A stretch of DNA of 42,472 bases. Origin: Hyphococcus sp. (GTDB taxonomy: Bacteria > Pseudomonadota > Alphaproteobacteria > Caulobacterales > Parvularculaceae). The translations under genes were made by a program, and so were the position numbers. How positions within the stretch are numbered: the stretch's first letter is position 1; every line of letters starts with the position of its first letter. The notes below the pieces were generated by a model that did no database searches, was not told where the DNA came from, and saw nothing but the letters and a program-made list of their open reading frames with translations. Location of the stretch: NCBI GenBank assembly GCA_021776245.1, contig JAJFGF010000063.1, forward strand, positions 1-42,472, read 5' to 3'. Of this stretch, positions 5,525 to 42,172 are shown piece after piece.

Positions 5525-7189
5525 CTAACTTTGGCGCACAGCAATATAGCCTGACAGGGCCGGAAGCTGTTCAGGCAACCCCTTGTCGTTCGCGTTAAAA
5601 CCAACATCGATGATGCGTTTAAACCGTTGTTCACTCAACGGACGCCAAGCTTGTGTCTTCGAGCCTATATTAAACACGCATAATGCTTCTTCGTGATTTG
5701 CAATGCGATAAAACGCCAGCAAATCGTCAACGCCTTCTACGAAGGCGCACTCCCCACAGCGAAGAGATAGGATGTTCTTTCTGATGGAGATTAGTTTGCG
5801 AACGAAATGGAGCGTCGATTGATCGTCGCGTTCCTGAACGCTAATGGCCAGTGCTGCATGACGCGGGTCTGAGGGCAACCACGGCTCCGCATTCGAAAAT
5901 CCTGCATTAGGTGCCGTATTTTTCCATGGTAGGGGCGTTCTCGCGCCGTCGCGACCGAGGGTCATCGGCCAATTTACAATAGCTTCCGGATCCTTTAGCG
6001 CCTCAAAAGGCACATGCGCCTGCGGTAGCCCCAACTCTTCGCCCTGATAGAGGAAAGCATTTCCTCTCAGACTCATCAAAAGCATAGCGTAGAGTTTTGC
6101 AGCGCGCGCAATATATTCCTCATCCGCCCAACGACTGACGGCTCTGGGCGCGTCATGGTTGGAAAACGCCCAGGACGGCCAGCCTTCTTCATTCTTTCCG
6201 CCCCAGGCATTTACCGCCGATTTGGTCAATGAAGTAGTCAATTTGTCCGCATAAAGAAAAGAAAAGTTATAGGCGGAATTAAGCCTGCGGCCATTCGCGG
6301 TGAATTCTTTCATTTCGTCCAGCGGTTCGGCGCCGCCAACTTCGGCAACAGTAAATATCCCATCATATTCATTAGTCATTTTCCGGATGCGTTCCAGAAA
6401 TTTTGGAATATCCGGATGCGACTGATTATAGATGTGGAGCTGATATTCAAACGGCCGTGTAAACTGACGGCCGTCGCGAGGGGCTGGCGGATTATCCCGC
6501 AATTGCGGATCGTGCATTGCAAAATTGAGTGCGTCCAACCGGAAGCCGTCAACGCCGCGATCCAGCCAGAAACGGCCTACCTCTAACAATGCATCCTGAA
6601 CTTCGTGATTGTGCAGATCCAAATCAGGCTGAGACCGCAGAAAGTTGTGCAAATAATATTGTTGCCGCCGAGTGTCCCAGCTCCACGCGCGGCCTCCGAA
6701 TACTGATTGCCAATTGTTTGGCGCCGATCCGTCCACCCTTGGATCCGCCCACACATACCAGTCCGCCTTGGGATTAGTGCGGTCCTGGCGGCTTTCGGAG
6801 AACCATTTGTGCTGATCAGATGTATGCGAATAAACCTGATCGATAATAATTTTAAGCCCGAGACGATGCGCTTTATCAATGATGTGATCGAAATCCGACA
6901 GTGTTCCAAATATGGGATCGACATTGCAATAATCGGCGACATCATAGCCAAAATCAGCCATCGGCGAGGTAAAAAACGGAGACAGCCAAACGGCGTCGAC
7001 GCCAAGTTCGGTGACGTAATCAAGGCCCTCAAGGACGCCCTTCAAATCGCCGACGCCGTCACCTGTGGAATCGCGAAAGCTGCGTGGATAAATTTGATAG
7101 ATAACCGCTCCACGCCACCAGTCCTGCGCTGCGGCGGGATCAGACCTCTCGGCGATGAGCTTTGCGTTTTTCGCGTCAAGCACGTTCAT
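5525..7189 (-). CDS. Cytoplasmic GH13 alpha-glucosidase (oligo-1,6-glucosidase/GH13_23-like)
   Basis: Hydrolyses maltose and short alpha-glucosides to glucose in the cytoplasm; no signal peptide is present. From the ATG at 7189 the protein has 554 residues and keeps the catalytic set Asp219 (GFRLDA), Glu283 (TVAEVG) and Asp346 (FSNHDAPR). The opening WWRGAVIYQIYPRSF and the QPDLDLHN stretch are typical of bacterial alpha-glucosidases that attack small substrates. A TTG five codons upstream is an alternative start but would overlap the previous gene; the ATG has GGAG nine bases ahead. It follows the exported GH13 gene by five bases, so the two form one operon and its substrate is probably the product of the upstream enzyme after import. 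Confidence 0.93.
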   Translation of the reverse strand: MNVLDAKNAKLIAERSDPAAAQDWWRGAVIYQIYPRSFRDSTGDGVGDLKGVLEGLDYVTELGVDAVWLSPFFTSPMADFGYDVADYCNVDPIFGTLSDFDHIIDKAHRLGLKIIIDQVYSHTSDQHKWFSESRQDRTNPKADWYVWADPRVDGSAPNNWQSVFGGRAWSWDTRRQQYYLHNFLRSQPDLDLHNHEVQDALLEVGRFWLDRGVDGFRLDALNFAMHDPQLRDNPPAPRDGRQFTRPFEYQLHIYNQSHPDIPKFLERIRKMTNEYDGIFTVAEVGGAEPLDEMKEFTANGRRLNSAYNFSFLYADKLTTSLTKSAVNAWGGKNEEGWPSWAFSNHDAPRAVSRWADEEYIARAAKLYAMLLMSLRGNAFLYQGEELGLPQAHVPFEALKDPEAIVNWPMTLGRDGARTPLPWKNTAPNAGFSNAEPWLPSDPRHAALAISVQERDDQSTLHFVRKLISIRKNILSLRCGECAFVEGVDDLLAFYRIANHEEALCVFNIGSKTQAWRPLSEQRFKRIIDVGFNANDKGLPEQLPALSGYIAVRQS

Positions 7190-7194
7190 TAAAC

Positions 7195-9075
7195 TTAACT
7201 CCAACTATTCGATTTGCAAATAATGTATCCAAGCGGCGGCACGGTAACTTTTACGCTGCCCGTCGTTGTGGATTTTCGATTACACCGTCCCGAAACGGAC
7301 TTCCATGATTTGGATCGCGGATCAGCATTGATCTGCAGCGTCCGCTCACGAGATTCTGCATTAAAAACGATCAGATATTCTCCCCCGTCATCGTCGAGAC
7401 GCGATACTGCCAACAGGCTTCCCTGATGTTCCGCCATGCGCAACAGCTGTGCGCCGCGCCGCAGCGGGGCATGCTTATGGTAGGTGCGCGCAATATCTGA
7501 CAATGCGCGATAAAAGGGATGTTTGGCGCTGAAGTTAGAAATCGCGGTTGTGGCGTCCGTATCGATCAGGTCATTGTCGTTAAATGAGCTAACCAGGCTC
7601 GGAAACATATCCTCACGAGCCGCCTTGTCGTTCCCGTCGCTGTTGAAACCCTGTTCATCGCCGTAATATATTACCGGCACGCCGCGCAGGTAGAACATCA
7701 TAGCATGTGCGAGAATAACGCGCTTGGAAATTTCTTTGTCCGTTGCGTCTGGGTGCGCCTGCCGCGCAAACATTGCAAACCGGCCCATATCATGATTGCC
7801 GACAAACACCGGAAGCTTGGCGGCAGTCTTTTCGCCGCCCTCATAAAGCGCATCGGCTGCAAAGAGTTCTTCAAACCTGATCGCCGGCGCACCATCGACG
7901 ACAACGCTCTGCACCGCGGACTGAAACGCAAAATCAAGGACGAATGGCAAGCCGTCAACACGGGTAAAGCGTGCGAGTCCGGCGGGATTGGGACTATAGG
8001 CTTCTCCAAAAACATAGAAGTTCGGAATGCCTTGGTCTTCTGCATGCTCAAGAATCGCCGCGGAAAAGGCCTGCCAATATTCCGGATTGACGTGCCTTGC
8101 GGTGTCAATGCGGAAACCATCCATTTTATAGTTGGTAATCCAGTCCTTAAAGATCGTAATGAAACCTTCAAGCACGTGCGGATCTTCCGTAAAAAGATCG
8201 TCCAGCCCGCTGAAATCCCCGTAAAGCGAACTTTCTCCGAACCAAAATGAGTCGCCGCGATTGTGATAGTAACGCGGATCGTTCAACCAGTCCGGTTTCT
8301 TTACGTTTTCTTCGCCAGCCGGCACATAGGGCGTGTAGGCGTAATCATATCGCGTGAGGCTTTCGAAGTTGTCGCTGGTTTGATAATGCGGGTCATCGCT
8401 CATGAACCCGTCATTGATACGCGCGCCAGATGCGAGCCCCCGCGTCGAGTAAGGGTAGTCCGCCTTGGAGCGGTAAGGGCATCCTTGTCCTGGTCTGTCG
8501 GCGCCTTGATAATCAGGGTCGTGACATTCACGGTAAGAAATCACGTCGGCTGTGTGATTGGTGATAATATCCAGGTAGATTTTGATACCACGTTCATGGG
8601 CGGCGTCTACAAACTCTTTTAAATCATCGTTGGTTCCAAAGTGCGGATCGACTGAAGTGAAGTCAGTAATCCAATAACCATGATAACCCGCAGACTCGTC
8701 GCCGGGCGGACCCTGCACTGGTTTGTTTTTATAAATTGGCCCCAGCCATATCGCCGTTGCGCCGAGACCTTCAATATAGTCCAGGCGCGCCGTCAGGCCC
8801 TTGAGATCGCCGCCGTGAAAAAACCCTTTGTCGGCTGGATCAAATCCGTGATCGAGCCGGCCGCCTTCAATTCCACCGAGGTCATTGCTTGGATCGGCAT
8901 TTTCAAAACGATCCGGCAACACGAAATAAATAACTTCATCCTCGGGCCCGCGACTCAAATAGTCGCCAGCAGCCGAAGCCCCCGTAAACGGACTGCACCA
9001 GACAACAAAAATATAGGCGGCGAATGCGCCGCGGATTCGAAAAAACGATGCGGCGCGATGAAAACCCCTGAACAT
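7195..9075 (-). CDS. Exported GH13 alpha-amylase family enzyme
   Basis: Predicted periplasmic or surface maltodextrin hydrolase of 626 residues. The reading frame is open further upstream to 9240, but the ATG at 9075 is preceded by GAGGGGAG and begins a convincing signal peptide (residues 1-36, cleavage after ASA). The upstream extension is not signal-like and would run across an operator. Catalytic residues are Asp324 (GFRIDTARH), Glu358 (VFGEAY) and Asp429 (VGNHDMGRF). Cysteines near 184 and 199 could form a disulfide in the B domain. It heads an operon with the cytoplasmic alpha-glucosidase. Whether it cuts starch, dextrin or pullulan cannot be read from sequence. Confidence 0.9.
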   Translation of the reverse strand: MFRGFHRAASFFRIRGAFAAYIFVVWCSPFTGASAAGDYLSRGPEDEVIYFVLPDRFENADPSNDLGGIEGGRLDHGFDPADKGFFHGGDLKGLTARLDYIEGLGATAIWLGPIYKNKPVQGPPGDESAGYHGYWITDFTSVDPHFGTNDDLKEFVDAAHERGIKIYLDIITNHTADVISYRECHDPDYQGADRPGQGCPYRSKADYPYSTRGLASGARINDGFMSDDPHYQTSDNFESLTRYDYAYTPYVPAGEENVKKPDWLNDPRYYHNRGDSFWFGESSLYGDFSGLDDLFTEDPHVLEGFITIFKDWITNYKMDGFRIDTARHVNPEYWQAFSAAILEHAEDQGIPNFYVFGEAYSPNPAGLARFTRVDGLPFVLDFAFQSAVQSVVVDGAPAIRFEELFAADALYEGGEKTAAKLPVFVGNHDMGRFAMFARQAHPDATDKEISKRVILAHAMMFYLRGVPVIYYGDEQGFNSDGNDKAAREDMFPSLVSSFNDNDLIDTDATTAISNFSAKHPFYRALSDIARTYHKHAPLRRGAQLLRMAEHQGSLLAVSRLDDDGGEYLIVFNAESRERTLQINADPRSKSWKSVSGRCNRKSTTTGSVKVTVPPLGYIICKSNSWS

Positions 9076-9166
9076 TGCTCCCCTCTTCCTTGGCGTCTCA
9101 ACAACCGGCTGAGTTTTCGGCCATTCCTTACTCTTGCCAATAACGTCGACGTGAAGATTTGTAAAT

Positions 9167-9180
9167 TGCAAAAAATTACA
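9167..9180. promoter_or_regulatory. Putative operator TGCAA-AAAA-TTACA upstream of the GH13 operon
   Basis: Second member of the repeated palindrome, in the 325-bp region between the leftward GH13 operon (start 9075) and the rightward TonB-dependent receptor (start 9401). It differs from the copy at 2775 by one base in the left arm. It is 92 bases upstream of the GH13 start and could influence both divergent units. Confidence 0.6.
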
Positions 9181-9333
9181 TTCGTTCTGTGGCGAAATTG
9201 TCATATCTAAGGAAAACCTGCAAGCACTAAAAAGCACCATAGTAATAATAGGTTATGTGTGATGCGCTGGGTGCGTGATGGTGAATTATGGGTTACAAAA
9301 CGGGCGCATAATGTCATTGACTGATTTTGCAGT

Positions 9334-9400: not shown

Positions 9401-12178
9401 ATGGATCGAGTTCACATTCGCCGCATTTTGCTCGGATGCGCGTCCAGCATCGCATTCGCGCCACTTGCTTACGCTCAAACTCAAAATGATGATGATCAAA
9501 AAGATGAAATCGTTGTCACCGGTTTTCGCAGCTCAATCGAAAACTCCGTAGCAACCAAACGCGACGCGAAGTCCATCATTGAAGCGGTTTCCGCTGAAGA
9601 TATCGGCAAATTACCGGATATCTCGATCGCTGAATCGCTCGGGCGCCTTCCAGGTCTCGCGACACAGCGTGTGAACGGCCGCAGTCAAGTGCTTTCGATC
9701 CGGGGGCTTGGGCCCGACCTTTCGACGGCGCTTTTGAACGGTCGCGAGCAGGTGACCACGAGCGACAATCGTGGTGTTGAATTCGATCAATATCCGGCGG
9801 AATTGTTATCAGGCGCGGTTGTTTATAAGACGCCTTTTGCCGGTCTGATTGGTCAAGGGCTTGCGGGTACAGTCGACATGCAAACCATTCGCCCGCTTGA
9901 TCGGAGCGGCCGAATTGTTTCCTTCAGCGGCCGTTATGAATTTAACGAAGACGGTTCTTTAAATCCTGACGCATCGGGGCAAGGTTTCCGCGCCACCGGC
10001 ACTATCGTCGATCAATTCATGGACGACACTTTCGGCGTCGCCCTCGGCGTCGCTTATCAGTCTTCACCGACACAAACCGAGCAATTCAACGCCTGGGGCT
10101 ACGCTGACGATGGCGCCGGCAATGCGCTCCTTGGCGGTTCGAAACCGTTTGTCGCCTCCAATGACCTCGACCGCTTCGGAATCATCGGCACGCTACAATA
10201 TGCGCCGACAGACGAATTTGAATCGACCGTAGATATTTTTTATTCAGACTTTAGTGAAGATCAACCACTGCGCGGAATCGAGTTTCCGCTCGGCTTTGGC
10301 GCCTTCGGCGTGACAACCGACTCGATCAATTCGATCGACAATGGAATCGTAACGGGCGCCACGTTCGGCAACCAAAGAGGCGTTATTCGTAATGATTTCA
10401 ATGAGCGGCGCGCCGACCTTTTCTCAGCGGGTTGGAACGGCCATTATGACAGCGACACATGGGGTGTCGAAATGGACATCAGTTATTCAAAAGCAGACCG
10501 CAATGACCGATTGATCGAATCCTATGCTGGCACAGGTTTTGGTGAGGCCGGTGGCGCTGCGGACACGCTGACGATTACGCGCAATCCGAATGGAACGTTT
10601 AACTTCGCGCCGATGATTGATTACAGTAATCCCAGCAATTTCGTGTTGACTGACCCGCTGGGTTGGGGCGGCGGCAACGATGTCGTGCAGGCCGGCTTTA
10701 TCAACGCGCCGGACACGACAGACGAACTTTGGCATCTTCGCGCCAGTGTTGATCGCGACCTGCACAACAGTTTCATCAGCAATGTTGAAGTCGGTGTCGA
10801 CTATGGAATGCGCGAAAAGTCTCGCAACATTGATCAGCAGTTCCTAACCATCGGTGGCGGACCGCTTTTCATTTCTGATGGTGCGATTACCACGGCGCCG
10901 ATTCCGACATCTGCTCTGCTCGAGCCGACTGGAATTGGTTTCCTGGGCATTCCGCAGCAACCAACTTATGATCCGTTGGCTCTGTTAGACAGCGGGTTCT
11001 ATAATCCGTTGTCCGTGTCACTCTCATCCTTCTCTGTCGCCCAGGACTGGACGGTCAATGAGGATGTGTTGACCGGCTGGGTAAAAATTGATGTCGACGC
11101 CAATCTCGGGTCAATTCCGGTTACGGGCAATATCGGCCTGCAAGTTGTCTATACAGATCAGACAGCGATGGGCTTTCGTATTCCGACCAGTGGCGTCATT
11201 TCAGGCACGCTTGGTCAAACGGCGGAATCGGTAGAGGAAGGCGATAGCTATACGGATTTCCTGCCGAGCCTGAATCTGATTTTTGAGCTTTCGGAAAATA
11301 CGCAAGTGCGCGTTGGCGCGTCGCGAACGCTTGCGCGGGCGCGCATGGACCAATTGAACGCCAGTCTGTCGCTTGGTGTGGACCTCACCAATCTTACGAA
11401 CACCGATCCATTTAATTCGACGTTCAGTGCGAATGGCGGTAATCCGTTCTTGCGGCCATATATTTCTAATCAGGTAGATCTGTCGATTGAGCATTATTTC
11501 GGCGGCGCCGGATATATTTCGATCGCGGGCTTCTATAAAGATCTCGACGATTTTGTGAATCCCGCCGATGGATTCCTGTTTGATTTTGCTGATTTCGTAG
11601 CCGGCGAGCTCACGCCGGCGCAAGCAGCGCAATTGGGAACAAGCGTAGGGTTCATCAACGGTCCTACCAACAATGGGTTTGGCGCCATTAAAGGCGTTGA
11701 ATTGGGTTTATCGCTGCCGGGTGAAATCTTTGATGAAGCGCTGTCGCCATTTGGTTTGATCACAAGTACGTCGTTTACCGATAGCGAAGTGACGTTGTTT
11801 GCGGAAGTTGATCCGACTATTAGAGGGACGATTACCGTGCCGGGCCTGTCGAAATGGGTTGTTAATTCTACACTCTATTACGAGAGCGGCGGATTTGAAG
11901 CGCGCGTTAGCCATCGCTTCCGATCGAAGTTTCTAGCCGAGGTTACGGGTATCAGTGCGACACGGAATTTCAGGGATGCGCTTAGCGAATCCATTTTTGA
12001 TGCGCAGATTGGTTATGCATTCCAAAGCGGCGCATTGGAAGGATTGAGAATCACCGTTCAGGGGCTCAATCTGACTGATGAACCCTTTGTGACGACGGTT
12101 TTTGGCCAGCCGCTGCAAGTGATCGACCACCAAAGTTTTGGCCGCACCTATCTTATTGGCGCGTCTTTCACATTCTAA
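9401..12178 (+). CDS. TonB-dependent outer-membrane receptor for maltodextrins (MalA-like)
   Basis: Active outer-membrane importer of 925 residues, powered through TonB. A signal peptide ends near residue 25 (AYAQ). The TonB box is visible as DEIVVTGF at about 35-42, then a plug domain (about 50-165) with the usual DIGKLPDISIAESL and RGLGPDLSTALLNGR motifs. A 22-strand barrel follows and ends in aromatic Phe (SFTF). It resembles the carbohydrate receptors of Caulobacter and sphingomonads. The substrate is inferred from its position between GH13 genes. It is transcribed alone, with a strong terminator after it, and is divergent from the exported GH13 operon. Confidence 0.93.
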   Translation: MDRVHIRRILLGCASSIAFAPLAYAQTQNDDDQKDEIVVTGFRSSIENSVATKRDAKSIIEAVSAEDIGKLPDISIAESLGRLPGLATQRVNGRSQVLSIRGLGPDLSTALLNGREQVTTSDNRGVEFDQYPAELLSGAVVYKTPFAGLIGQGLAGTVDMQTIRPLDRSGRIVSFSGRYEFNEDGSLNPDASGQGFRATGTIVDQFMDDTFGVALGVAYQSSPTQTEQFNAWGYADDGAGNALLGGSKPFVASNDLDRFGIIGTLQYAPTDEFESTVDIFYSDFSEDQPLRGIEFPLGFGAFGVTTDSINSIDNGIVTGATFGNQRGVIRNDFNERRADLFSAGWNGHYDSDTWGVEMDISYSKADRNDRLIESYAGTGFGEAGGAADTLTITRNPNGTFNFAPMIDYSNPSNFVLTDPLGWGGGNDVVQAGFINAPDTTDELWHLRASVDRDLHNSFISNVEVGVDYGMREKSRNIDQQFLTIGGGPLFISDGAITTAPIPTSALLEPTGIGFLGIPQQPTYDPLALLDSGFYNPLSVSLSSFSVAQDWTVNEDVLTGWVKIDVDANLGSIPVTGNIGLQVVYTDQTAMGFRIPTSGVISGTLGQTAESVEEGDSYTDFLPSLNLIFELSENTQVRVGASRTLARARMDQLNASLSLGVDLTNLTNTDPFNSTFSANGGNPFLRPYISNQVDLSIEHYFGGAGYISIAGFYKDLDDFVNPADGFLFDFADFVAGELTPAQAAQLGTSVGFINGPTNNGFGAIKGVELGLSLPGEIFDEALSPFGLITSTSFTDSEVTLFAEVDPTIRGTITVPGLSKWVVNSTLYYESGGFEARVSHRFRSKFLAEVTGISATRNFRDALSESIFDAQIGYAFQSGALEGLRITVQGLNLTDEPFVTTVFGQPLQVIDHQSFGRTYLIGASFTF

Positions 12179-12204: not shown

Positions 12205-12241
12205 GACCCCGCCCGTATCCTATTGCCGGCGGGGTCTTTTT
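12205..12241 (+). terminator. Intrinsic terminator after the TonB receptor
   Basis: A nine-base perfect stem, GACCCCGCC (12205-12213) with GGCGGGGTC (12228-12236), is followed by a T run. It separates the receptor from the halogenase gene starting at 12330, so the halogenase probably depends on read-through or its own promoter. Confidence 0.9.
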
Positions 12242-12329: not shown

Positions 12330-13859
12330 ATGACCACCAACGATCAAGCCGGGCGTGCGATAGCAACGGTGCTGATTGTCGGCGGCGGCACGGCCGGCTG
12401 GATGGCCGCCGCGGTCCTTTCCAAGGCGCTCGGCAAACAGGTTTCAATCAGGCTGATTGAATCAGATGAAATCGGAACAGTCGGCGTCGGCGAGGCGACA
12501 ATCCCGCAAATTCATCACATCAACAGGTTTCTCGGGTTTGATGAAAACGACTTCATTCGCAGCACGCAAGCCAGTTTCAAGCTCGGCATACAGTTCAACA
12601 ACTGGGCCAGGCTAGGGGACAGCTATCTTCACGCTTTTGGCGACATCGGCATGCCGCTTGGGCTTATTCCTTTTCATCATTTTTGGCTGCGCGCGCGCGC
12701 GTCGGGAGACCAAAGCAGCCTTTGGGACTATTCCATCAACACGCTGGCCGCCATGCAGAACCGTTTTGACCGCATTGAGCAAGTTGGGTCTTCCAGGCTC
12801 ACCGGCATAAGATACGCCTTTCACTTCGATGCCAGCCTCTATGCACAATATCTTCGCCGCTTCGCCGAAACGCGTGGTGTGAAAAGATCAGAAGGCAAGA
12901 TCGTCGATGTCGCGCTCGATGGCGAGACCGGTTTTATCAGAACGGTTCGGCTTCAAAGCGGAGAGGAGATTGGCGCAGATTATTTTATTGATTGTTCCGG
13001 CTTTCGCGGTCTGCTGATCGAGGGCGCCCTCAAAGCCGGTTATGAGGACTGGACGCGATGGCTGCCTTGCGATCGCGCGGTCGCGGTGCAGTCCGAGCAT
13101 GGCGGCGTTTTTCGTCCATATACACAAGCGACGGCCCAACAGGCCGGCTGGCAATGGCGCATTCCGCTGCAGCATCGCGTTGGCAACGGCCATGTCTATT
13201 GCAGTCAGTTTATGACCGACCAGCAAGCCAAAGACATCCTTTTACGGAATATTGAAGGAAAGGCGCTGGGCGAGCCGCGTTTCATTCGCTTCACGACGGG
13301 CATGCGCAAGCGCATGTGGGTCAAAAACTGCGTCGCGCTGGGCCTGGCCAGCGGCTTCATGGAACCCCTTGAATCGACATCGATCCACCTGATTCAGTCA
13401 GCGGTCAGCCGCATCGTTTCCATGTTTCCCGACATGCGTTTCGATCCAGTGCTCGTCGAAGAGTTCAATCGGCAATCGCGGTTCGAGCTTGAACGCGTTC
13501 GCGATTTTCTGATTTTGCACTATCACGCCAATGAGCGTAATGATTCCGATTTTTGGAAGGGCTGTCGCGATATGACCGTGCCGGATGCGCTGACAGCGAA
13601 GATGGCGTTGTTCCGCGCCAGTGGGCGAATTTACCGTGAACATGAAGAGCTCTTTACGGAAACCGGATGGCTTCAGATTTTGCTCGGCCAGCGAATTATG
13701 CCCGCTGGGCGCCATCCGGTTGCGGATGTGCTTCCCGAAGGCGACCTTTCCGGTTTCCTTCGCGACATCAAGTCGTTGATCACGCAGGCGTCGTCGTCAA
13801 TGCCCTTACATGAAGCGTTTATTAACAGCCATTGCAAGGCGCCGGCGACCGGTCATTGA
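12330..13859 (+). CDS. Flavin-dependent tryptophan-halogenase-like protein (first copy)
   Basis: FAD-dependent halogenase family protein of 509 residues. The N-terminal nucleotide-binding motif GGGTAG is at 18-23. The lysine that carries the hypohalous acid intermediate in PrnA/RebH aligns with Lys84 (SFKLGIQF). The family motif WxWxIP is WQWRIP at 274-279, and the catalytic-glutamate segment EPLEST has Glu348. All key positions look intact, so it may be active. Family members near TonB receptors in Caulobacter, Brevundimonas and Xanthomonas include enzymes that brominate indole-type substrates; the physiological substrate is unknown. No flavin reductase is encoded nearby. It converges on the second halogenase gene, their ends overlapping by seven bases. 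Confidence 0.88.
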   Translation: MTTNDQAGRAIATVLIVGGGTAGWMAAAVLSKALGKQVSIRLIESDEIGTVGVGEATIPQIHHINRFLGFDENDFIRSTQASFKLGIQFNNWARLGDSYLHAFGDIGMPLGLIPFHHFWLRARASGDQSSLWDYSINTLAAMQNRFDRIEQVGSSRLTGIRYAFHFDASLYAQYLRRFAETRGVKRSEGKIVDVALDGETGFIRTVRLQSGEEIGADYFIDCSGFRGLLIEGALKAGYEDWTRWLPCDRAVAVQSEHGGVFRPYTQATAQQAGWQWRIPLQHRVGNGHVYCSQFMTDQQAKDILLRNIEGKALGEPRFIRFTTGMRKRMWVKNCVALGLASGFMEPLESTSIHLIQSAVSRIVSMFPDMRFDPVLVEEFNRQSRFELERVRDFLILHYHANERNDSDFWKGCRDMTVPDALTAKMALFRASGRIYREHEELFTETGWLQILLGQRIMPAGRHPVADVLPEGDLSGFLRDIKSLITQASSSMPLHEAFINSHCKAPATGH

Positions 13860-15409
13860 TCCTGACCGGCGCTGTCTTGGCTCTCTGCGTGCATCTGCGC
13901 CAGCACCTCTTTGTGATCGCGGAAATTGAGTCCCGAACGCGCGACAAAGTCGTCGATAATATTCAGGTCAAAACGTTTAAGATCATCCGTCGGCGGTTTA
14001 ATTTTATCCTGGTCAGGATAATTTCCATATCCGCCGAGGAGGCAAATCCATGACGTCAATGAATAATATTTGCTGATGTCTTGTTCGGCGATTTCCTTTT
14101 TTAAGTCACCACGCGAAAACCAGCACTGCAAAAGCTGTTGTAGCGAATCTGACAGCTTGTTGTTTGCAACATTGTCGCGCCAATATTCTGTATCGTTTCG
14201 CAACGCTGCCCGATAATGGCAAACAATATAATCGCGAACGCCCTCAAAGCGGGCGCTTATCTCCGCGTTGAATTCGTCTTCCTTTTCATTCGTGAAATTG
14301 CCTTTCTCGAGCGCCGCCATGAATTGCTCGACGGTCGCCTGGACCAGATGAAGAGCGGTCGCTTCCAGCGGTTCGATGAAACCCTGGGATAAGCCGACGG
14401 CAAGACAGTTTTTATGCCAGTGTTTCTCTACGCGGCCAACTTTCATTTTGAGATGGCGAGCCGCCACATCGCTGTCGAGCATTCCCAAATGCGTTCGCAA
14501 TTCAGCTTCCGCTTCGTCTGCCGAGCAATAGCGGTCACTGTAGACATAGCCATTGCCGGTTCTATTGGTGAGCGGAATATTCCACACCCAGCCGTTTTTT
14601 AGCGCCGTTGAGACGGTTTGCGAATTGGTTCCGGCAGTGTCGGCGGACGTTGGCATCACGACCGCAGCGTTGTTGAACAGGTTTTCCGCAAATGAGACGA
14701 ATTTGACGCCCAAAGCCTGCTGTAGAATGAGCGAACGAAAGCCCGTGCTGTCGACGAAGATATCGGCGGCGATTGCGCGATCGTCATCGAGTTTTAAAGA
14801 GGCGACATTTCCGCTTTCGGTGAGCAGAACGTCAGTAACTTTTCCCTCAATATGAGAGACTCCAAGTGATATTGCATGCTCGCGCAAAAAAGCACTGACG
14901 AGATAAGCATCGAAATGATAGCCATAAGCCATTTCAAAGGGGAAATGATGTGCGGCCGTGGGAGCGAGGCTGTTGTTTGCAAGATATGCGGACAGGAAAA
15001 AACGATCCGGACTGGCGTCTAAATCAAATCCTTGTCGGCGGAAATGGCTGTTGAAATAAAACGCCGGCGATGTGTGGAGGTCGACAGGTGAGGGGAACGG
15101 ATGAAAATAATGTTCATATCCGGGCCGAGCGGACCAGCCGTAAAAACTGATGCCGTTCTTATAGGTCGCGCTGCATTTCGGCATCCAGTCGGATTCCGCA
15201 ACGCCCAGATATTCAAAGAACGCCTTTAATTGCGGGGTTGAGCCCTCGCCGACGCCGATAATGCCGATGTCGGGTGATTCCAGGACGGTGATGTCGACAT
15301 TGCGATCCGCCCAGCGTTTCGCCATCAGATTGGCGGCCATCCATCCGGCGGCGCCGCCGCCGAGAACGAGGATTCGAAATGGACCATTATCTGCTTTTTT
15401 TGAAGCCAT
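13853..15409 (-). CDS. Flavin-dependent tryptophan-halogenase-like protein (second copy)
   Basis: Second family member, 518 residues, clearly diverged from the first. FAD motif GGGAAG at 18-23, Lys84 in ATYKNGISF, WVWNIP at 274-279, and EPLEAT with Glu349 where the first copy has EPLEST. It is the last gene of a leftward operon after the lipoprotein GH13 gene, overlapping it by one base (TAATG), so it is translationally coupled to a sugar enzyme. Reaction and substrate are unknown; halogenation is inferred from family motifs. No signal peptide, so it acts in the cytoplasm. Confidence 0.88.
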   Translation of the reverse strand: MASKKADNGPFRILVLGGGAAGWMAANLMAKRWADRNVDITVLESPDIGIIGVGEGSTPQLKAFFEYLGVAESDWMPKCSATYKNGISFYGWSARPGYEHYFHPFPSPVDLHTSPAFYFNSHFRRQGFDLDASPDRFFLSAYLANNSLAPTAAHHFPFEMAYGYHFDAYLVSAFLREHAISLGVSHIEGKVTDVLLTESGNVASLKLDDDRAIAADIFVDSTGFRSLILQQALGVKFVSFAENLFNNAAVVMPTSADTAGTNSQTVSTALKNGWVWNIPLTNRTGNGYVYSDRYCSADEAEAELRTHLGMLDSDVAARHLKMKVGRVEKHWHKNCLAVGLSQGFIEPLEATALHLVQATVEQFMAALEKGNFTNEKEDEFNAEISARFEGVRDYIVCHYRAALRNDTEYWRDNVANNKLSDSLQQLLQCWFSRGDLKKEIAEQDISKYYSLTSWICLLGGYGNYPDQDKIKPPTDDLKRFDLNIIDDFVARSGLNFRDHKEVLAQMHAESQDSAGQDQ

Positions 15410-16836
15410 TAGTTCTTAAGATACACTCGGTAGCTCCAGGGTGCCAGGATCAACGTGCTATCTGCGTCAAAGGTTATATCACCGCCCGCAAAATAATCCG
15501 TATAGGCGCCATGGTGCAGTGATTGCGGGAAAGACACCATCTTTTCTTCCGCGCTGAAATTCATGAGCGCGAAAATACCGTCCTTTTCGCCAAAGCGCAC
15601 GAAACTCAGAACCTTTTGCGGCTCGGAATTGAGAACAGAAATCATGCGCGCGCCGCCGGCGCCGTTCCACAACGCCCGGGTCTCATGTTTTAGCGCAAAG
15701 AGCTGTTTGTACAAATCCCCGACAGGGTGCTCACGCCAGTCAATCAGGTCCTTTTCGAAAAACGCCAGCCGCTTCGGGTTGCCCGCTTCCTGGCCGTTAT
15801 AGACTAGCGGAACGCCTTCTCCGACAACGGACAGAACGATGGCCGCCTCAAGCGCATCGCCGAAAAGTTCGAATTGTGTTCCCTCCCAGGCGTTTTTGTC
15901 GTGATTGCTGATAAATGTCATGCGATAGGCATCCGCAGGCCAGGCGCTTTCATTCGCCGAGTAGTATCCAAAGAGGGCGCCCACATCCGCCCCGTTTGCA
16001 GCGATGTCGTGCATGGCGTTATGCCAGTCCCACGCGTAGGTTGCATCAAATGCGCGTGCGTGCAGGTCGCGTGTTTGCCACTCAGCCAACATGAAAACCG
16101 GCCTGATTTCATCAAGCTCACGGCGGACATTGTCCCAAAAATCAAGCGGAGCATATCCGGCGACGTCGCATCGATAGCCGTCAATGCCCGCCTCTGCGAC
16201 CCAGTATTTCATCGCCTCGGTCATATATTCGCGTAATTCCGGATTTGAATAATCAAGATCGATAATGTCAGACCAGTCCCACCATGGCGTTGGACGAAAG
16301 TCGCCCTTCCAGTCGCGTTCATACCAATCGGCATGATCCGTTACGAGACTATTGTCCCAGGCGGTATGATTGGCGACCCAATCAAGAATGACATACATGC
16401 CAAGAGTGTGAGCTGCGTCGACAAAGGATTTTAAATCCTCGAACGCGCCAAATTCCGGATTGACGCCAAAATAATCTTTGACGGCGTAGGGGCTGCCGAG
16501 CGAGCCTTTACGGTTTTTTTCCCCGATGGGGTGGATCGGCATCAGCCACAAGATGTCTGCGCCCAGTTCTTTTATCCGCGGCAGTTCTTTCTGGGCCGCA
16601 GCGAATGTGCCCTCTTTCGTAAAATGACGGGTATTAATCTGGTAAATAACCGCATTGCGTGACCATTCGGGATGATCGATTTTAATATAAGGGTTCGGGG
16701 CATAGAGGCTGGCTTTGTCGGAGGGGCCCGTTTGGGCGCCGTCTTGGGCCCGCGCGCCGTTTGGCTTTCTTGCTTCGATGCCGTCGCAAGCGGCGATGGC
16801 AACGAGTGCGGACGCAATGGCGAGATATTTAGACAT
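15409..16836 (-). CDS. GH13 alpha-amylase family lipoprotein
   Basis: Membrane-anchored alpha-glucan hydrolase of 475 residues. The signal ends in a lipobox (VAIAAC, lipidated Cys17). The residue after Cys17 is Asp, which in enterobacteria marks inner-membrane retention, but that rule is not reliable here. Catalytic residues are Asp224 (IDGYRCD), Glu252 (MLAEWQ) and Asp313 (ISNHDKNAW). It is shorter than the other GH13 enzymes here and has no carbohydrate-binding domain. AGAGGA seven bases upstream supports the start. It lies between the 2OG-oxygenase-like gene and a halogenase in one operon. Likely role is trimming maltodextrins in the periplasm or at the surface. Confidence 0.92.
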   Translation of the reverse strand: MSKYLAIASALVAIAACDGIEARKPNGARAQDGAQTGPSDKASLYAPNPYIKIDHPEWSRNAVIYQINTRHFTKEGTFAAAQKELPRIKELGADILWLMPIHPIGEKNRKGSLGSPYAVKDYFGVNPEFGAFEDLKSFVDAAHTLGMYVILDWVANHTAWDNSLVTDHADWYERDWKGDFRPTPWWDWSDIIDLDYSNPELREYMTEAMKYWVAEAGIDGYRCDVAGYAPLDFWDNVRRELDEIRPVFMLAEWQTRDLHARAFDATYAWDWHNAMHDIAANGADVGALFGYYSANESAWPADAYRMTFISNHDKNAWEGTQFELFGDALEAAIVLSVVGEGVPLVYNGQEAGNPKRLAFFEKDLIDWREHPVGDLYKQLFALKHETRALWNGAGGARMISVLNSEPQKVLSFVRFGEKDGIFALMNFSAEEKMVSFPQSLHHGAYTDYFAGGDITFDADSTLILAPWSYRVYLKN

Positions 16837-16933: not shown

Positions 16934-17638
16934 TTAGTTGACGGACGGTTCGGGTCTCAAAAAGCAATTGACCGTGAGACGCCCTCGCCGCGGGTCGTCG
17001 GGCAGGGGGGAAGTGTTGTCGATCGCGCTGCAATGCAGAATAAAGCCCCGGTATATCAGCATGCGGTTGAAAGCAGCGTCGACGGCGCCGATGCGTTCGA
17101 AGAAGGGCGCGCCGTCCTCTATATATCGTGGTGGCGGCAGGCCGCGTTCACGCACTTCGGTCTCAAGGGTTTGCTTGAATTTATTGAACCGTTCAGCGTT
17201 CACTGTTTCATAGCCGGTGCTGCAATGGCGATAAAAGGCGGTGCCGCCTTGCTCGTGTTTGCTCAGATAATAAAGGATCGCAATGCGCTTTTCCTCAACC
17301 CCGTCATAATGAGGAAATCGCTGGATCGGCAACAACGCTTCCGGAGGAGTTGTTACCATCGAATAAAAACATTCACTGCTCCAGCGTTCACCGATGATAT
17401 CGAAATGTTGTTCGAGAATATCTTCTGTTGAAGCTATCAGCGTTTGCGTGAATTCTTCGTCAACATATGCCCGCCGACCTGGAAAGTATGCGCCAATGTA
17501 TGAGAACGTTTTCGCGCAGGCGTCTTCAACAAAAGCTTCGGGGTGCGAGAGTGCATTGTCGATGACCACGACCGGCTGGCGCTGGTTTCCGAAATGCTCG
17601 ACATGCAGTGTCGATTGCGGAGACAGACTGATCTTCAT
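16934..17638 (-). CDS. DUF6445-type protein with 2OG-Fe(II) oxygenase features
   Basis: Protein of 234 residues from ATG 17638. It shows the pattern of a 2-oxoglutarate/iron dioxygenase: HxD as His110-Tyr-Asp112 (FPHYDG), a distal His202 (ILHCSA), and Arg220 (GRLTVN) placed to bind 2-oxoglutarate, with RIAILYYL and GGTAFYRH between as barrel strands. It matches the DUF6445 family as I remember it, often found beside TonB receptors and tryptophan-halogenase genes. An upstream ATG at 17776 would add 46 residues of poor quality; the family normally begins at the MKISLSPQ methionine. It is the first gene of the operon with the lipoprotein amylase and second halogenase. Substrate unknown. Confidence 0.75.
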   Translation of the reverse strand: MKISLSPQSTLHVEHFGNQRQPVVVIDNALSHPEAFVEDACAKTFSYIGAYFPGRRAYVDEEFTQTLIASTEDILEQHFDIIGERWSSECFYSMVTTPPEALLPIQRFPHYDGVEEKRIAILYYLSKHEQGGTAFYRHCSTGYETVNAERFNKFKQTLETEVRERGLPPPRYIEDGAPFFERIGAVDAAFNRMLIYRGFILHCSAIDNTSPLPDDPRRGRLTVNCFLRPEPSVN

Positions 17639-17797
17639 TTCGCACCTGACAATTTCTTCACGCGCCGCTTCGATCCTTTTAGGCGCAGCGCCATTTTGGT
17701 TGGTCCGAGGAAGAGGGGCAATGGTGACATCCTTCGTCGATGCGCGTGGGTAATGGGTGAAGTGGAGGGGCCTCATTGCCTGGACGATCTATTTGGC

Positions 17798-17961: not shown

Positions 17962-18073
17962 TAGGTCTGTAAGATTCGATGCTCGTGCCAGCGGCTGTTT
18001 GGCGTGGACTTGATGCGCCATGTTGGTGATCTGTCAGTCTTTGATGAAGCAATTATCGGGGAGTGAGAATATA

Positions 18074-20167
18074 ATGTCCGCAGCGCGATCGCGACTTTTG
18101 CAACTAACCGCCGCAGCCTTTTGGTTGTTATCCATGTTCGCGGCGCAAACAGCCGTTGCGCAGACCCCCGTTCAGGTGAGTTCTCCGGATGGCGAAATTG
18201 TCGTCACCGTGAGCGACGATAGCGGCAACGCGCAGTACAAGATCGATTATCGCGGCGAACAGCTCATCGCACCGTCGCGTCTCGGCATGCGTTTTAAAGA
18301 CCAAGAGGGTTTCGAGACCAATTTTGAAATCGTCGCAAGCGAAGTCGCGAGCGCTGATGAGACTTGGGAGCAGCCATGGGGCGAACGCCGATTTGTCCGC
18401 GATCATCACAATGAACTTTATGTGAAATTCCGGGCGATCGACAATCCGGATCGCCGGTTCGCGGTCCGTTTTCGTTTGTTCGATGACGGCGTCGGATTCC
18501 GTTACGAAATTGGGAAACAGAAAAAGCTTGGGAAAGTCGAAATAACAGATGAGCTGACGCAATTTTCTGTTGGCGAAAACACGACAAGCTGGTCGATTCC
18601 GAGCGGCGAATTCAATCGGTATGAATATATTTACAGCGAGACCCCTGCTGGCCAGGTTCAAGATGCGCATACGCCCATAACATTTAAGAAGTCCTCTGGT
18701 GTCCACTTCAGCATTCACGAGGCCGCGCTTGTCAATTACTCGGGCATGTCGCTCCAGCGGCTTCGTCCGGGAACGTTCAAGGCGCAGCTTTCGCGCTGGT
18801 CGGATGGCGTTCTTGTGAAAACAAAAACGCCTTTCGTGACGCCCTGGCGCACAATCCAGATTTCACCAGACGCCAAGGGGCTGTTAAATTCGGACCTGAT
18901 TTTAAACCTCAACGAGCCAAACAAGCTCGGCGACGTCTCCTGGGTCGAACCTGCAAAATATGTCGGCATCTGGTGGGAAATGCATATCCGCGATGCAAGT
19001 TGGGGGATGAAGCCGCTCCATGGCGCCACAAACGAGAATGTGAAGCGTTACATCGATTTCGCCGCAAGAAATGGTTTCAAAGGCATTCTTGTCGAAGGTT
19101 GGAATGTAGGTTGGGACGACAATTGGTTTGGCAACGGTAAAGTGTTCAGCTTTACGACGACCTATCCGGATTTCGATCTCGCTGCGCTCGCCGCTTACGC
19201 GGAGGAAAGGGGCGTGCGCATTATCGGGCACCACGAGACTGGAGGCGCGGCAACGCATTACGAGCGCCAGATGGAAGACGCGTTCGCGCTGTATGAAGCC
19301 AATGGCGTGCGCACCGTGAAGACAGGCTATGTCGCGGACGCTGGCGGCATCCAGCGCATAGACGACAAGGGCGTGGAGCGCTTCGAATGGCATGACAGCC
19401 AGTTCATGGTGAACCATCATCTCAACGTTGTGAAAGCGGCGGCAAAATACAAAATTGCAATCAATCCTCACGAGCCGATCAAGGATACTGGCCTTCGCCG
19501 GACCTATCCGAACTGGATCGCGCGTGAAGGCGCTCGCGGTCAGGAATTTAACGCCTGGGGCACACCGCCAAACCCGCCTGAGCACACAGCGATATTGCCA
19601 TTCACGCGAATGCTCGCCGGACCGATGGATTTCACACCCGGTATTTTCGACCTTGAGCCGAACAAAAAACCGCCTGTGCGTGATGACATGCAGCGTTCTG
19701 ATCCGTCGAACCGTCCACAAACAACACTGGCGAAGCAGCTCGCACTTTATATTGTGCTCTATAGCCCGATACAGATGGCGGCGGATTTGCCGGAAAACTA
19801 CGAAAAGCGTCCGGACGCTTTTCAATTCATCAAGGACGTGCCGACCGACTGGGAAGAAAGCATCGCGATCGCAGGCGAAATCGGAGATTTCGTCGCTTTC
19901 GCCCGCAAGGACCGCAACAGCGATGACTGGTACCTCGGTGCGCTGACTGATGAGGATACGCGAGAATTGGAGATCTCTCTCGACTTCCTCAATCAGGGCC
20001 AGGCATATGTCGCCGAAATATATAGGGATGGCGACAATGCTGACTGGAAAACACGCCCTTATGATATGATCATTGAACAACGCACCGTTACGGCAGACGA
20101 AATAATGACGCTGCCGCTGGCTGCAAGCGGTGGGGCGGCCGTCCGTTTCTACCCGACTTCGCGATAG
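18074..20167 (+). CDS. GH97 alpha-glucosidase (SusB-like)
   Basis: Calcium-dependent alpha-glucosidase of about 697 residues that would release glucose from maltodextrins in the periplasm. A signal peptide ends at AVAQ. The N-terminal beta-sandwich runs to about residue 270, followed by the barrel with family motifs GILVEGWNVGWDD, GHHETGG, NPHEPIKDTGLRRTYPN and REGARGQEF. Glutamates in these motifs fit the inverting alpha-glucosidase branch typified by Bacteroides SusB rather than the retaining alpha-galactosidase branch. ATG 18074 is preferred for its GGGGAG site and signal peptide; an upstream ATG at 18020 adds 18 residues. It is followed after nine bases by the sugar symporter that can import the released glucose. 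Confidence 0.92.
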   Translation: MSAARSRLLQLTAAAFWLLSMFAAQTAVAQTPVQVSSPDGEIVVTVSDDSGNAQYKIDYRGEQLIAPSRLGMRFKDQEGFETNFEIVASEVASADETWEQPWGERRFVRDHHNELYVKFRAIDNPDRRFAVRFRLFDDGVGFRYEIGKQKKLGKVEITDELTQFSVGENTTSWSIPSGEFNRYEYIYSETPAGQVQDAHTPITFKKSSGVHFSIHEAALVNYSGMSLQRLRPGTFKAQLSRWSDGVLVKTKTPFVTPWRTIQISPDAKGLLNSDLILNLNEPNKLGDVSWVEPAKYVGIWWEMHIRDASWGMKPLHGATNENVKRYIDFAARNGFKGILVEGWNVGWDDNWFGNGKVFSFTTTYPDFDLAALAAYAEERGVRIIGHHETGGAATHYERQMEDAFALYEANGVRTVKTGYVADAGGIQRIDDKGVERFEWHDSQFMVNHHLNVVKAAAKYKIAINPHEPIKDTGLRRTYPNWIAREGARGQEFNAWGTPPNPPEHTAILPFTRMLAGPMDFTPGIFDLEPNKKPPVRDDMQRSDPSNRPQTTLAKQLALYIVLYSPIQMAADLPENYEKRPDAFQFIKDVPTDWEESIAIAGEIGDFVAFARKDRNSDDWYLGALTDEDTRELEISLDFLNQGQAYVAEIYRDGDNADWKTRPYDMIIEQRTVTADEIMTLPLAASGGAAVRFYPTSR

Positions 20168-20176
20168 GAACGGGTT

Positions 20177-21739
20177 ATGGCGCTTGAGACAGTCGATCTT
20201 GTTATTGTCATTGGTTATGCGATTGCGTTGATTGCGATCGCGACATTGGTATCGCGCGAGAAGGTGGGCCACAAGAAAGATACGGCGGATTACTTTCTGG
20301 CGGGCAAGGCGCTGCCCTGGTGGGCGATCGGCGCGTCGCTGATAGCGGCGAACATTTCGGCCGAGCAGATTATCGGCATGTCGGGATCCGGCTACGCCGT
20401 CGGTCTTGCGATTGCTTCTTACGAATGGATGGCGGCGATCACGCTGGTGATCGTCGGTAAGTTCTTTTTGCCGATCTTTTTAAAACGCGGCATCTATACG
20501 ATGCCGCAATTTCTCGAACAGCGCTTCGGACCCAGCGTCAAATACGTAATGTCGGTGTTTTGGCTGGGGCTTTACACCTTCGTCAATCTGACAACGATCC
20601 TGTGGCTTGGGGCGACCGCGATCAATACGCTGACCGGCGCTGATATGATGCTCGGCATGGTTTTGCTGGCGATGTTCGCCGCTGCTTACTCACTTTATGG
20701 TGGGCTTAAAGCTGTCGCGCTCACTGACATCATTCAGGTTGTCTTGCTTGTGTTTGGCGGCTTGTTGATCGCCAACATCACGCTCAGCGCCGTTGGCGGC
20801 GGCAGCGCCATTGCCGGTTTCGGACGGCTGATGGCCGAGTTTCCCGAGCGTTTCGACATGATCCTGTCGCGCGACAATCCGGAATATAAAAACTTACCGG
20901 GGATTGGCGTTCTCCTCGGCGGCATGTGGATCATGAACATTTCTTATTGGGGATGTAACCAATATATCATTCAGCGGGCACTTGGCGCCAAGAATGTTAA
21001 GGAAGCGCAGGCCGGCATCATGTTCGCAGCTTTTTTAAAGCTCCTGATGCCATTGATCATTGTCGTGCCGGGGATTGCCGCCGTCATGTTGGCGCCGGAT
21101 CTCGCCAAACCCGATCAGGCCTATCCGGAGATGATGAAGCTGGTGCCGACGGGGATAAGAGGGCTAATCTTTGCTGCCCTCATAGCAGCGATCGTTTCCT
21201 CACTGGGCTCAATGATGAATTCGATTTCAACGATCTTTACGATGGACCTTTACCGGCCGCTGTTCGGCAAGGGGAAAACCGAACGTCAGCTCGTCGGCGT
21301 TGGACGGATCACAAGCCTCTCGGCAATTGCCATCGCCGTCGTCGCGGCGCGGCCTTTGCTCGCCGGGGCCGATCAGGTGTTTCAGATAATCCAGGAATAT
21401 ACCGGCTTCTTCACGCCGGGCATTGTCGTGATCTTTGTGCTCGGCCTGTTTTGGAATCGGGCGACGGAACTCGGAGCCATGGCGGCGGTGATCGGATCGT
21501 TTGCTTTGTCTCTGGCGTTCAAAATCTGGCTGCCGACGATGCCCTTTATGGATCGCGTTGGCGTCGTCTTTCTTTTGTGCATGGGGCTTGGCGGCGCCTT
21601 GTCGCTGCTGCAGCGTCCCTCGGGCGATGACAAGATTGTGAATCTTGCGGGCGTTTCGTTCAAGACCAGCACGCGGTTTAACATCGGCGCTGCCATCGTC
21701 ACCGCCGTCCTCATTATTCTTTATGGATTTTATTGGTGA
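20177..21739 (+). CDS. Sodium/sugar symporter, SSS family (SGLT-like)
   Basis: Sodium-coupled transporter of 520 residues with about 14 hydrophobic segments. It matches the vSGLT style: WWAIGASLIAANISAEQ near residues 48-64, an NISYWGCNQYIIQRAL segment near 252-267, and SSLGSMMNSIST in the segment that forms the sodium site. The probable substrate is glucose, since it sits directly between a GH97 alpha-glucosidase and glucose-6-phosphate dehydrogenase; galactose or another hexose cannot be excluded. Same operon as GH97, preceded by AGGAACGGG. Confidence 0.9.
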   Translation: MALETVDLVIVIGYAIALIAIATLVSREKVGHKKDTADYFLAGKALPWWAIGASLIAANISAEQIIGMSGSGYAVGLAIASYEWMAAITLVIVGKFFLPIFLKRGIYTMPQFLEQRFGPSVKYVMSVFWLGLYTFVNLTTILWLGATAINTLTGADMMLGMVLLAMFAAAYSLYGGLKAVALTDIIQVVLLVFGGLLIANITLSAVGGGSAIAGFGRLMAEFPERFDMILSRDNPEYKNLPGIGVLLGGMWIMNISYWGCNQYIIQRALGAKNVKEAQAGIMFAAFLKLLMPLIIVVPGIAAVMLAPDLAKPDQAYPEMMKLVPTGIRGLIFAALIAAIVSSLGSMMNSISTIFTMDLYRPLFGKGKTERQLVGVGRITSLSAIAIAVVAARPLLAGADQVFQIIQEYTGFFTPGIVVIFVLGLFWNRATELGAMAAVIGSFALSLAFKIWLPTMPFMDRVGVVFLLCMGLGGALSLLQRPSGDDKIVNLAGVSFKTSTRFNIGAAIVTAVLIILYGFYW

Positions 21740-23283: not shown

Positions 23284-23551
23284 ACTTATTGAGTTTGGCG
23301 CACGAGCGCCTATGGCCGAGCGGCTCGCCGACGTCATCGAAGCGAAACTTGCGCGCGCCATAGCAACACGCGGCGTGGCGAGTCTCGCCGTTTCCGGCGG
23401 TTCGACATCGGCCGGCCTCTATCGCGTCCTGTCGACGGGAACGCTCGAATGGCGTAAAGTAACGGCGGCGCTTGTCGATGAACGCTGGACGCGGCCAGGT
23501 TCTTCCGGCTCAAACGAAACATTCATAGGCAATACTTTAATTGGGTATTAG
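23267..23551 (+). pseudogene. pgl: 6-phosphogluconolactonase, truncated at its 3' end
   Basis: The frame starts at ATG 23267 inside the end of zwf. It reads a normal lactonase N-terminus, including AVSGGSTSAGLYRVL and LVDERWTRPGSSGSNETF. After about 92 native residues it enters the left inverted end of the inserted element and stops at 23549-23551. The family is about 220-240 residues, so over half the enzyme is missing, including the active-site GMGxDGH region. The rest is not found to the right of the element. It is almost certainly inactive; the lactone also hydrolyses spontaneously and a second pgl may exist elsewhere. Confidence 0.9.
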
Positions 23552-24402: not shown

Positions 24403-24591
24403 GGTTCGATCGGAACCGCATCCACCAGCAAGTGACTCTGCCAAAATTGATTTGGGGCGCGTTGAGACGTGAGGGAAAGTTAGCCGCAGCAGCCAAATGA
24501 GCAGCTCCGAATTTCGTTCTCCGAATCCCTTGATGATGTCGAAAAGACACGAAATAATTGTCAATCGATTGGCTTACTGATTAAAAAATGG

Positions 24592-42073: not shown

Positions 42074-42074
42074 G

Positions 42075-42102
42075 GCGTTTCCGAGATAAAGTGGATTCCT
42101 GT
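42075..42102. repeat. Partial intergenic repeat unit
   Basis: Contains CGTTTCCGAGATAAAGTGGA, a form I recall from dispersed palindromic repeats in rhizobia and relatives. Only one half is evident before the sequence changes to the IS remnant. Confidence 0.3.
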
Positions 42103-42172
42103 GTATTGGATGCATGCTATAGATGCTGCGGGAAGGAGGCCGTTGGATTCCTGGTCTTTGAAGACCGTAAGC

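Follow-up and report, generated by a model that had tools for sequence, protein, structure and literature searches.

A stretch of DNA of 42,472 nucleotides from Hyphococcus sp. (GTDB family Parvularculaceae; assembly GCA_021776245.1, contig JAJFGF010000063.1, positions 1 to 42,472), which will be referred to as the window, carries the genes of two flavin-dependent halogenases, HalA and HalB, and of a DUF6445 protein within a starch/maltodextrin locus. Sequence comparisons and structure models established that HalA and HalB are catalytically complete as judged by their motifs, that they are accompanied by a partner with the predicted fold of the Fe(II)/2-oxoglutarate (2OG) oxygenases, that such enzymes recur next to one type of TonB-dependent receptor whatever the glycan, and that the halogenase lineages are specific for the slot they occupy in the locus. 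By the same comparisons, the second slot is filled by a different lineage, that of HalB, in most loci of the window's genus. We consider the halogenases to be very probably coupled to receptor function. As a tentative explanation, we favour HalA, HalB and DUF6445 forming a module for oxidative modification that is accessory to receptor loci and may act on a protein.

The two halogenases and their DUF6445 partner

HalA (positions 12330–13859, plus strand, 509 amino acids) and HalB (13853–15409, minus strand, 518 amino acids) matched PF04820 with 648.6 and 415.3 bits (cut-off 21 bits) and are 31% identical to each other across 467 columns. The two genes converge, with a tail-to-tail overlap of 7 bp, between a TonB-dependent receptor of the TonB-Xanth-Caul type (9401–12178, plus strand; TIGR01782, 551.8 bits, cut-off 310) and a lipoprotein GH13 amylase (15409–16836, minus strand; PF00128, 111.6 bits) in which the lipobox IAAC was read by eye. 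The receptor is the only TIGR01782 member above the cut-off in the window genome. HalA shows GGGTAG at residue 18, Lys84, WQWRIP at 274 and EPLEST at 345 (Glu348 and the halide-site Thr350), and HalB shows GGGAAG at 17, Lys84, WVWNIP at 274 and EPLEAT at 346 (Glu349 and Thr351). All of these residues are invariant columns in an alignment of 18 sequences, and both proteins are, judged by these motifs, intact flavin-dependent halogenases (variant A type) with predicted activity. The first-pass annotation, which was made from the DNA letters alone, had proposed two diverged halogenases with intact FAD, Lys, WxWxIP and Glu motifs, converging between receptor and lipoprotein amylase; the coordinates of its reading frames proved exact and the motifs were found in both proteins.

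The gap of 151 bp between the receptor and HalA contains a terminator-like hairpin with a T-run (12205–12241, plus strand; read by eye and absent from the listing of a scan), and transcription of HalA from the receptor transcript is therefore not required. On the minus strand, DUF6445 (16934–17776; PF20043, 241.7 bits), the amylase and HalB form a consecutive run in which DUF6445, overlooked in the first-pass annotation, comes first. The stop codon of the amylase and the start codon of HalB share one base (TAATG). This overlap makes the proposed translational coupling of HalB to the amylase plausible. Frames of GH13 and HalB likewise overlap in all six other loci of the genus in which a GH13 gene adjoins HalB, as judged from automatic starts.

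The best solved relatives of HalA are 9luq, Xcc4156 (6y1w) and BrvH (6frl), with 49.5% identity to Xcc4156 and 45.4% to BrvH across the compared stretches, and the halogenase fold of HalA was assigned through these close sequence relatives. BrvH (6FRL) and Xcc4156 (6Y1W) have the same catalytic set as HalA, and the BrvH gene likewise adjoins a second halogenase gene (PMC5945002). HalB, in contrast, belongs to another lineage, with 33.4% identity to BrvH and 31.6% to Xcc4156. Its closest solved relatives by sequence and fold are among PrnA, RebH, PyrH, SttH and Thal, with which it has the fold and the chemistry motifs in common. The structure model of HalB (predicted local distance difference test score, pLDDT, 90.1) matched SttH, PyrH and AbeH in the PDB by Foldseek with template modelling (TM) scores of ~0.8. 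PrnA, RebH, PyrH, SttH and Thal belong to antibiotic pathways. Such free-tryptophan halogenases are ~28–35% identical to HalB, and no antibiotic pathway was seen in the window. Likewise, no biosynthetic cluster was seen within the window and no flavin reductase family was matched among the 19 window proteins scanned. The corresponding statement of the first-pass annotation holds for the window; one PF01613 reductase is encoded elsewhere in the genome.

The tryptophan-binding loop of RebH comprises Tyr454, Tyr455, Glu461 and Phe465 (PMC5945002). HalA aligns in this region with BrvH, which is without the loop. In HalB, compared with RebH relatives only, a Tyr-Tyr pair is present, whereas the loop region is gapped. 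Bromination of indoles, but not of free tryptophan, is described for BrvH and for three halogenases of Xanthomonas; for BrvH, turnover of indole is slow and poor and the open active site could accommodate larger substrates (PMC5945002, PMC7336383). No native substrate is known for BrvH or Xcc4156. TonB is not mentioned in the text available from these two papers, figures aside.

The true start of DUF6445 is probably internal, near position 17638. The residues H156-x-D158, H248 and R266 were invariant in 24 of 24 sequences and again in all 35 of a second set, and the structure model reached a pLDDT of 94.7. Nearly all of the 50 Foldseek matches listed are 2OG/Fe oxygenases. The model has the double-stranded beta-helix in common with its best PDB matches (HygX, OGFOD1, PasI, AndA, Tpa1 and P4H), and with TM scores of ~0.5 the likeness is at the level of the fold only. 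Because of the invariant H-x-D/H/R residues, the model and these matches, DUF6445 is predicted to be an Fe(II)/2OG oxygenase. Pfam gives no function for the family, and its name was absent from the literature searched. Other receptor-halogenase loci carry Cupin_8 together with SapC, or a TPR-2OG oxygenase; the partners of the halogenases belong to the oxygenase-type families DUF6445, Cupin_8 and 2OG-FeII_Oxy_5. A DUF6445 gene was also observed on an Asticcacaulis plasmid (locus L039) together with a TonB receptor, GH92, GH2, GH115, GH28 and a formylglycine-generating-enzyme-like protein. In the 18.8 kb fetched for this locus no halogenase was found, and DUF6445 can therefore occur in receptor loci without one.

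Linkage to receptors and slot-specific lineages

Linkage was counted in 13 genomes chosen for HalA relatives, which contain 102 PF04820 genes and 139 TIGR01782 receptors when split pieces of one frame are joined in both counts. Of the 102 PF04820 genes, 69 have a TIGR01782 receptor at a distance of no more than 2.5 kb, compared to ~2.9 expected at random. Chaining via neighbouring halogenases raised this number to 87 of 102, including 73 of the 79 halogenases above 500 bits, and one to four halogenases accompanied 51 of the 139 receptors. In 60 loci hand-picked from HalA matches of the order, a full-length receptor was present within 600 bp in 54 cases and a receptor match within the locus in 58. 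The recurrence near TonB receptors which the first-pass annotation had asserted is now counted, and the lack of co-occurrence with sugar receptors that it had named as a refuting outcome is clearly not what was found. The window genome (4.1 Mb), whose close relatives were recorded as Marinicaulis and are now Hyphococcus (Parvularculaceae), has four PF04820 genes. The two outside the window (loci L005 and L006, contigs C50 and C65) have as neighbours pheT, PilZ and TPR-sulfotransferase genes, and SDR, beta-lactamase-like and sensor-kinase genes.

The glycan enzymes in the 60 loci vary, with GH13 in 38, GH97 in 23, GH3 in 10, GH43 in nine and GH115 in seven; these counts derive from our own profiles, which were given priority as frame calling without family models was unreliable in high-GC loci. 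Outside the order, a receptor was detected in the 1.5-kb flanks of 19 of the 25 loci with DNA, and the remaining six had a second halogenase (four loci) or SapC and Cupin_8 (two loci). For plasmid records, 11 halogenase loci were fetched, nine of them annotated, and a TonB receptor was annotated close by in all nine, with GH43, GH9, GH95, GH16, GH3 and GH32 as glycan enzymes in addition to starch enzymes. A sample was also drawn starting from DUF6445 and consisted of the nearest 80 among 262 relatives; since the query alignment came from seven halogenase loci, this sample is partly dependent. Ten loci shorter than 15 kb were left out, and the other 70 contained a halogenase in 62 and a receptor in 61 cases. 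The association is with the receptor type and is not specific for starch; the starch setting given in the first-pass annotation is correct for the window but varies elsewhere. The recurrence beside sugar receptors in many bacteria suggests that the enzymes serve sugar uptake rather than the making of antibiotics.

A tree of 179 halogenases grouped largely by position in the locus, with each lineage spanning many genomes. Halogenases of the receptor-adjacent starch slot S1, the slot of HalA, fell into one clade of 59 (54 of 56, support 0.985), those of the second starch slot S2 (32 of 32, support 0.909) and of the HalB type (12 of 12, support 1.0) into clades of their own, and those of xylan-type loci into separate lineages. 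Position labels required 17 changes on 145 of the 179 tips, whereas none of 200 shuffles, in which kinship was not preserved, needed fewer than 69; after labels had been curated for HalB and two swapped-order loci, 15 changes were required. The catalytic Lys, Glu and Thr are kept in 56/56 S1, 32/32 S2 and 12/12 HalB sequences. Xcc4156 grouped with halogenases of SapC/Cupin_8 receptor loci (support 0.997) and lies in a clade of 61 tips together with the S1 sequences (0.904), with HalB outside it; the placement of BrvH is unsupported (0.2).

The pairing noticed in the first-pass annotation usually involves two lineages, each specific for its slot; in the window, a different lineage has taken the second slot. 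HalB occupies the slot which a BrvH-like enzyme has in other starch loci. Among nine starch loci fetched for the window's genus, eight contain HalB and one (L019) contains S2. In a locus of a related genus (L083), S2 stands where the window has HalB. HalB, S2 and HalA occur together in one overlapping run in L013, HalA stands alone in L084, and relatives of HalB were found in starch loci of Novosphingobium, Qipengyuania and Sphingomonas. From these sequences we read the pattern as one halogenase having taken the place of another within a kept slot.

One could argue that the linkage reflects nothing but long co-inheritance of neighbours in carbohydrate loci with no joint function. In line with this, the linked receptors lie in few clades (8 changes on the tree), and halogenase-free starch loci of normal gene content exist. 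Nevertheless, the same arrangement is met outside the order, with different glycan enzymes and several times per genome, and its second slot is held in the window by another halogenase lineage. We consider mere co-inheritance improbable.

A separate observation concerns a xylan-locus lineage of 12 sequences, in which the catalytic Lys is kept in 3/12, the Glu in 1/12 and the halide Thr in 0/12. It comprises one gene each in L031, L111, L114, L116, L123, L127, L129, L130, L131, L137, L140 and L142, and each of these degenerate halogenases is accompanied by two or three intact paralogues in receptor loci of the xylan type or related to it. Judged by its residues, the degenerate enzyme is a candidate pseudo-enzyme partner. 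That one of the four xylan-locus lineages is without the catalytic set also suits the view that the halogenase fold is used for another flavin reaction, such as hydroxylation or the release of hypohalite or peroxide as a defence, with no specific halogenated product. The neighbouring enzymes of predicted hydroxylase families would fit as well, and a deep-sea study puts forward, as speculation, roles of such halogenases in hypochlorite formation or in redox chemistry, the latter in interactions of viruses with receptors (PMC11337851). Against this stand the full catalytic set in all S1, S2 and HalB sequences of the tree and the activity of the relatives as brominases (PMC5945002, PMC7336383), and we regard such other chemistry as unlikely.

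Candidate targets and the favoured explanation

In the explanation that we favour, the module would be cytoplasmic and attached to the carbohydrate TonB receptor locus. HalA and HalB would take FADH2 from a general flavin reductase and use O2 and halide to generate a hypohalous species, with bromide as the preference of the studied relatives. Each slot's halogenase would modify an aromatic ring at a site of its own, and DUF6445 would hydroxylate the same target. This target would not be a free metabolite but a polypeptide made with the receptor system, either the receptor chain itself prior to export or one of the surface proteins encoded in the locus. Its modification may tune the behaviour of receptor or surface protein on starch. 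A protein-modifying module is favoured because the constant partner is the receptor type, several lineages stand side by side and the partners are of hydroxylase type. Some known members of the hydroxylase-type families act on proteins. The fold matches of DUF6445 also include protein-acting enzymes, and OGFOD1, Tpa1, NO66 and P4H among them are consistent with this background. Taken by itself, a protein as target falls somewhat short of an even chance. More speculative is a version in which halogenation or hydroxylation is programmed for several aromatic sites on the receptor or a surface partner, with a dead halogenase sometimes acting as partner, and we consider it rather doubtful.

The receptors themselves were compared as 87 linked and 58 unlinked sequences, then by clade, and in a second comparison as 58 halogenase-linked and 13 halogenase-free starch-type receptors. 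The halogenase-free loci came from a receptor-first search in which 20 regions (16–18 kb) were chosen mainly for having no listed halogenase. L308 and L309 (halogenase ~2.15 kb away), L321 (outgroup) and L324 (receptor at the contig end) were left out of this set, and L169 and L182 (halogenase ~7 kb away) were left out of the receptor test. This search showed that some starch-type receptor loci have a normal gene content but no halogenase within the 16–18 kb fetched. The idea that all starch-clade receptors have halogenases was rejected as an artefact of sampling from halogenase matches.

Several observations weigh against the explanation proposed here. In the first receptor comparison, no Trp was common to both linked clades and missing from the unlinked receptors. 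Position 142 was Tyr or Phe in 85 of the 87 linked receptors and Tyr in 13 of the 58 unlinked ones, and Tyr523 was also commoner in linked receptors; both tyrosines, however, are kept in all 13 halogenase-free starch-type receptors, as are Trp232, Trp422 and Trp550. The mean Trp count is 12.0 in halogenase-free compared to 9.8 in linked starch-type receptors. Since halogenase-free receptors keep their tryptophans, the receptor either works unmodified or is not the target. HalA, HalB and DUF6445 have no obvious signal peptide by eye, whereas the receptor and the amylase are exported, and the top fold matches of DUF6445 include small-molecule enzymes, with HygX first. The linkage is not uniform either: below 500 bits, 14 of 23 halogenases were linked with chaining, less than among high scorers, and of the nine PF04820 genes in 15 genomes that had been selected because they lack HalA, only one lay beside a TIGR01782 receptor. 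Ten neighbouring proteins scanned around the two other PF04820 genes of the window genome included no receptor. Eight of the 70 DUF6445 loci had no halogenase, seven of them having no receptor either. DUF6445 occurs in 22 of 58 starch-type loci with and in 0 of 13 without halogenase, a contrast which is uncorrected for kinship and includes some incomplete loci. Finally, HalB shares a clade of 24 tips (support 1.0) with PyrH and halogenases of non-receptor loci.

Modification of a fixed receptor tryptophan, one form of the protein modification listed among possible purposes in the first-pass annotation, is not supported, as no Trp tracks the halogenases and Trp422 is invariant in both sets. Trp557 was dropped as well: although it is lost in two sister pairs, no more than 4 of the 58 linked receptors have a tryptophan there. 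Positions that did differ between the 58 linked and the 13 halogenase-free receptors are Asp418, Tyr917 and Phe433. Residue 917 is Tyr in 43/58 linked compared to 2/13 halogenase-free receptors and otherwise mostly Phe, a contrast confounded by kinship since the halogenase-free set is mostly one family. Of the three positions, only Tyr917 changes with halogenase loss, and does so in the sister pair L323/L322 and in a single member of a second group of three, but not in a third pair; in view of this partial agreement it is kept as a weak sequence lead to a receptor target only. Possible targets thus include Tyr917, variable loop sites and other proteins.

A conserved small peptide gene was not found: among 471 small frames in 55 starch loci, no more than three loci shared any frame at the BLAST limit applied. 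The most widely shared frames lie in the window's genus, several of them before the receptor, where they perhaps represent a control region. Between the promoters of the loci, only weak 18-base similarities were detected and no shared operator. The peptide tryptophan halogenase MibH, which the BrvH paper names (PMC5945002), may serve as a possible working model only for halogenation of a tryptophan within a peptide; no conserved precursor peptide gene was found here, and HalA and HalB are not assigned to its kind.

Alternatively, the halogenases might act on a small aromatic compound, such as indole, a tryptophan derivative or an algal or plant phenolic, serving as a signal, in detoxification or as a deterrent, and would be co-expressed with glycan uptake since the glycan reports the host. 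The clade of HalB with PyrH, its fold closest to the free-tryptophan halogenases SttH, PyrH and AbeH, and its Tyr-Tyr pair near their loop all agree with such a substrate, and so does the bromination of indole, not tryptophan, by BrvH, although that turnover is poor (PMC5945002). On the other hand, the constant partner is a receptor type and not a glycan, and a single receptor can have as many as four halogenases, each conserved separately, which suits several sites on one large target better than one small substrate. We therefore consider a small-molecule substrate possible but on balance doubtful, and retain the module acting on a protein of the receptor system as the favoured explanation.

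The surrounding locus and relation to known systems

By profile searches of the window proteins, the starch/maltodextrin locus extends from 193 to 21739. Upstream of the receptor it comprises a GH13 amylase with a CBM20 starch-binding domain (193–2457, minus strand; PF00128, PF00686), an MFS sugar transporter (2813–4396, plus strand; PF07690), a LacI-family regulator (4396–5424, plus strand; PF00356, PF13377), a GH13 alpha-glucosidase-like protein (5525–7204, minus strand; PF00128, 422.1 bits) and a further GH13 amylase (7195–9240, minus strand; PF00128, 215.2 bits). Beyond DUF6445 follow GH97 (18020–20167, plus strand; PF10566, PF14508, PF14509) and an SSF symporter (20177–21739, plus strand; PF00474).

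Outside the locus, a G6PD gene (21781–23283) is overlapped at its end by a frame resembling the start of 6-phosphogluconolactonase (23267–23551, by eye), which ends after ~94 residues. The region up to 25064, in which an IrrE-like metallopeptidase fragment (by eye) is accompanied by a tRNA-Arg gene (24589–24665), looks like an insertion scar. A bacterial alpha-2-macroglobulin and a penicillin-binding protein with a BiPBP_C domain (PBP1C-like) follow in tandem (25064–32076, plus strand), a pairing that is common. A transposase-like fragment, IS630-like by eye, leaves the window at its end (42041–42472, minus strand).

A TonB receptor, glycan enzymes, an inner-membrane sugar transporter and a sugar regulator are all present, and the window thus has the starch/maltodextrin set of the carbohydrate utilization containing TonB-dependent receptor (CUT) loci described for Xanthomonas and Caulobacter, which comprise TonB receptor, GH, MFS and LacI genes (PMC1790865). 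The halogenases and the predicted 2OG oxygenase come in addition to this set; they are enzymes of known families in a CUT-type locus. The word halogenase is absent from the available text of the CUT paper and from that of a review of sphingomonad receptors (PMC7142613). In the literature searched, from which subscription journals were mostly excluded, an association of halogenases with carbohydrate TonB loci is not described, which is no proof of novelty.

For the indole brominases, these findings mean that a native substrate should be looked for in carbohydrate TonB receptor loci and not in secondary metabolism. The locus represents a testable unit consisting of a receptor, two halogenases and a predicted Fe/2OG oxygenase, with receptors of the same type without halogenases as natural controls. 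In addition, DUF6445 gains a predicted function class, and a conserved lineage of apparently dead halogenases has been recognised. If the target is indeed a protein, sugar uptake in these bacteria would routinely involve the halogenation or hydroxylation of proteins.

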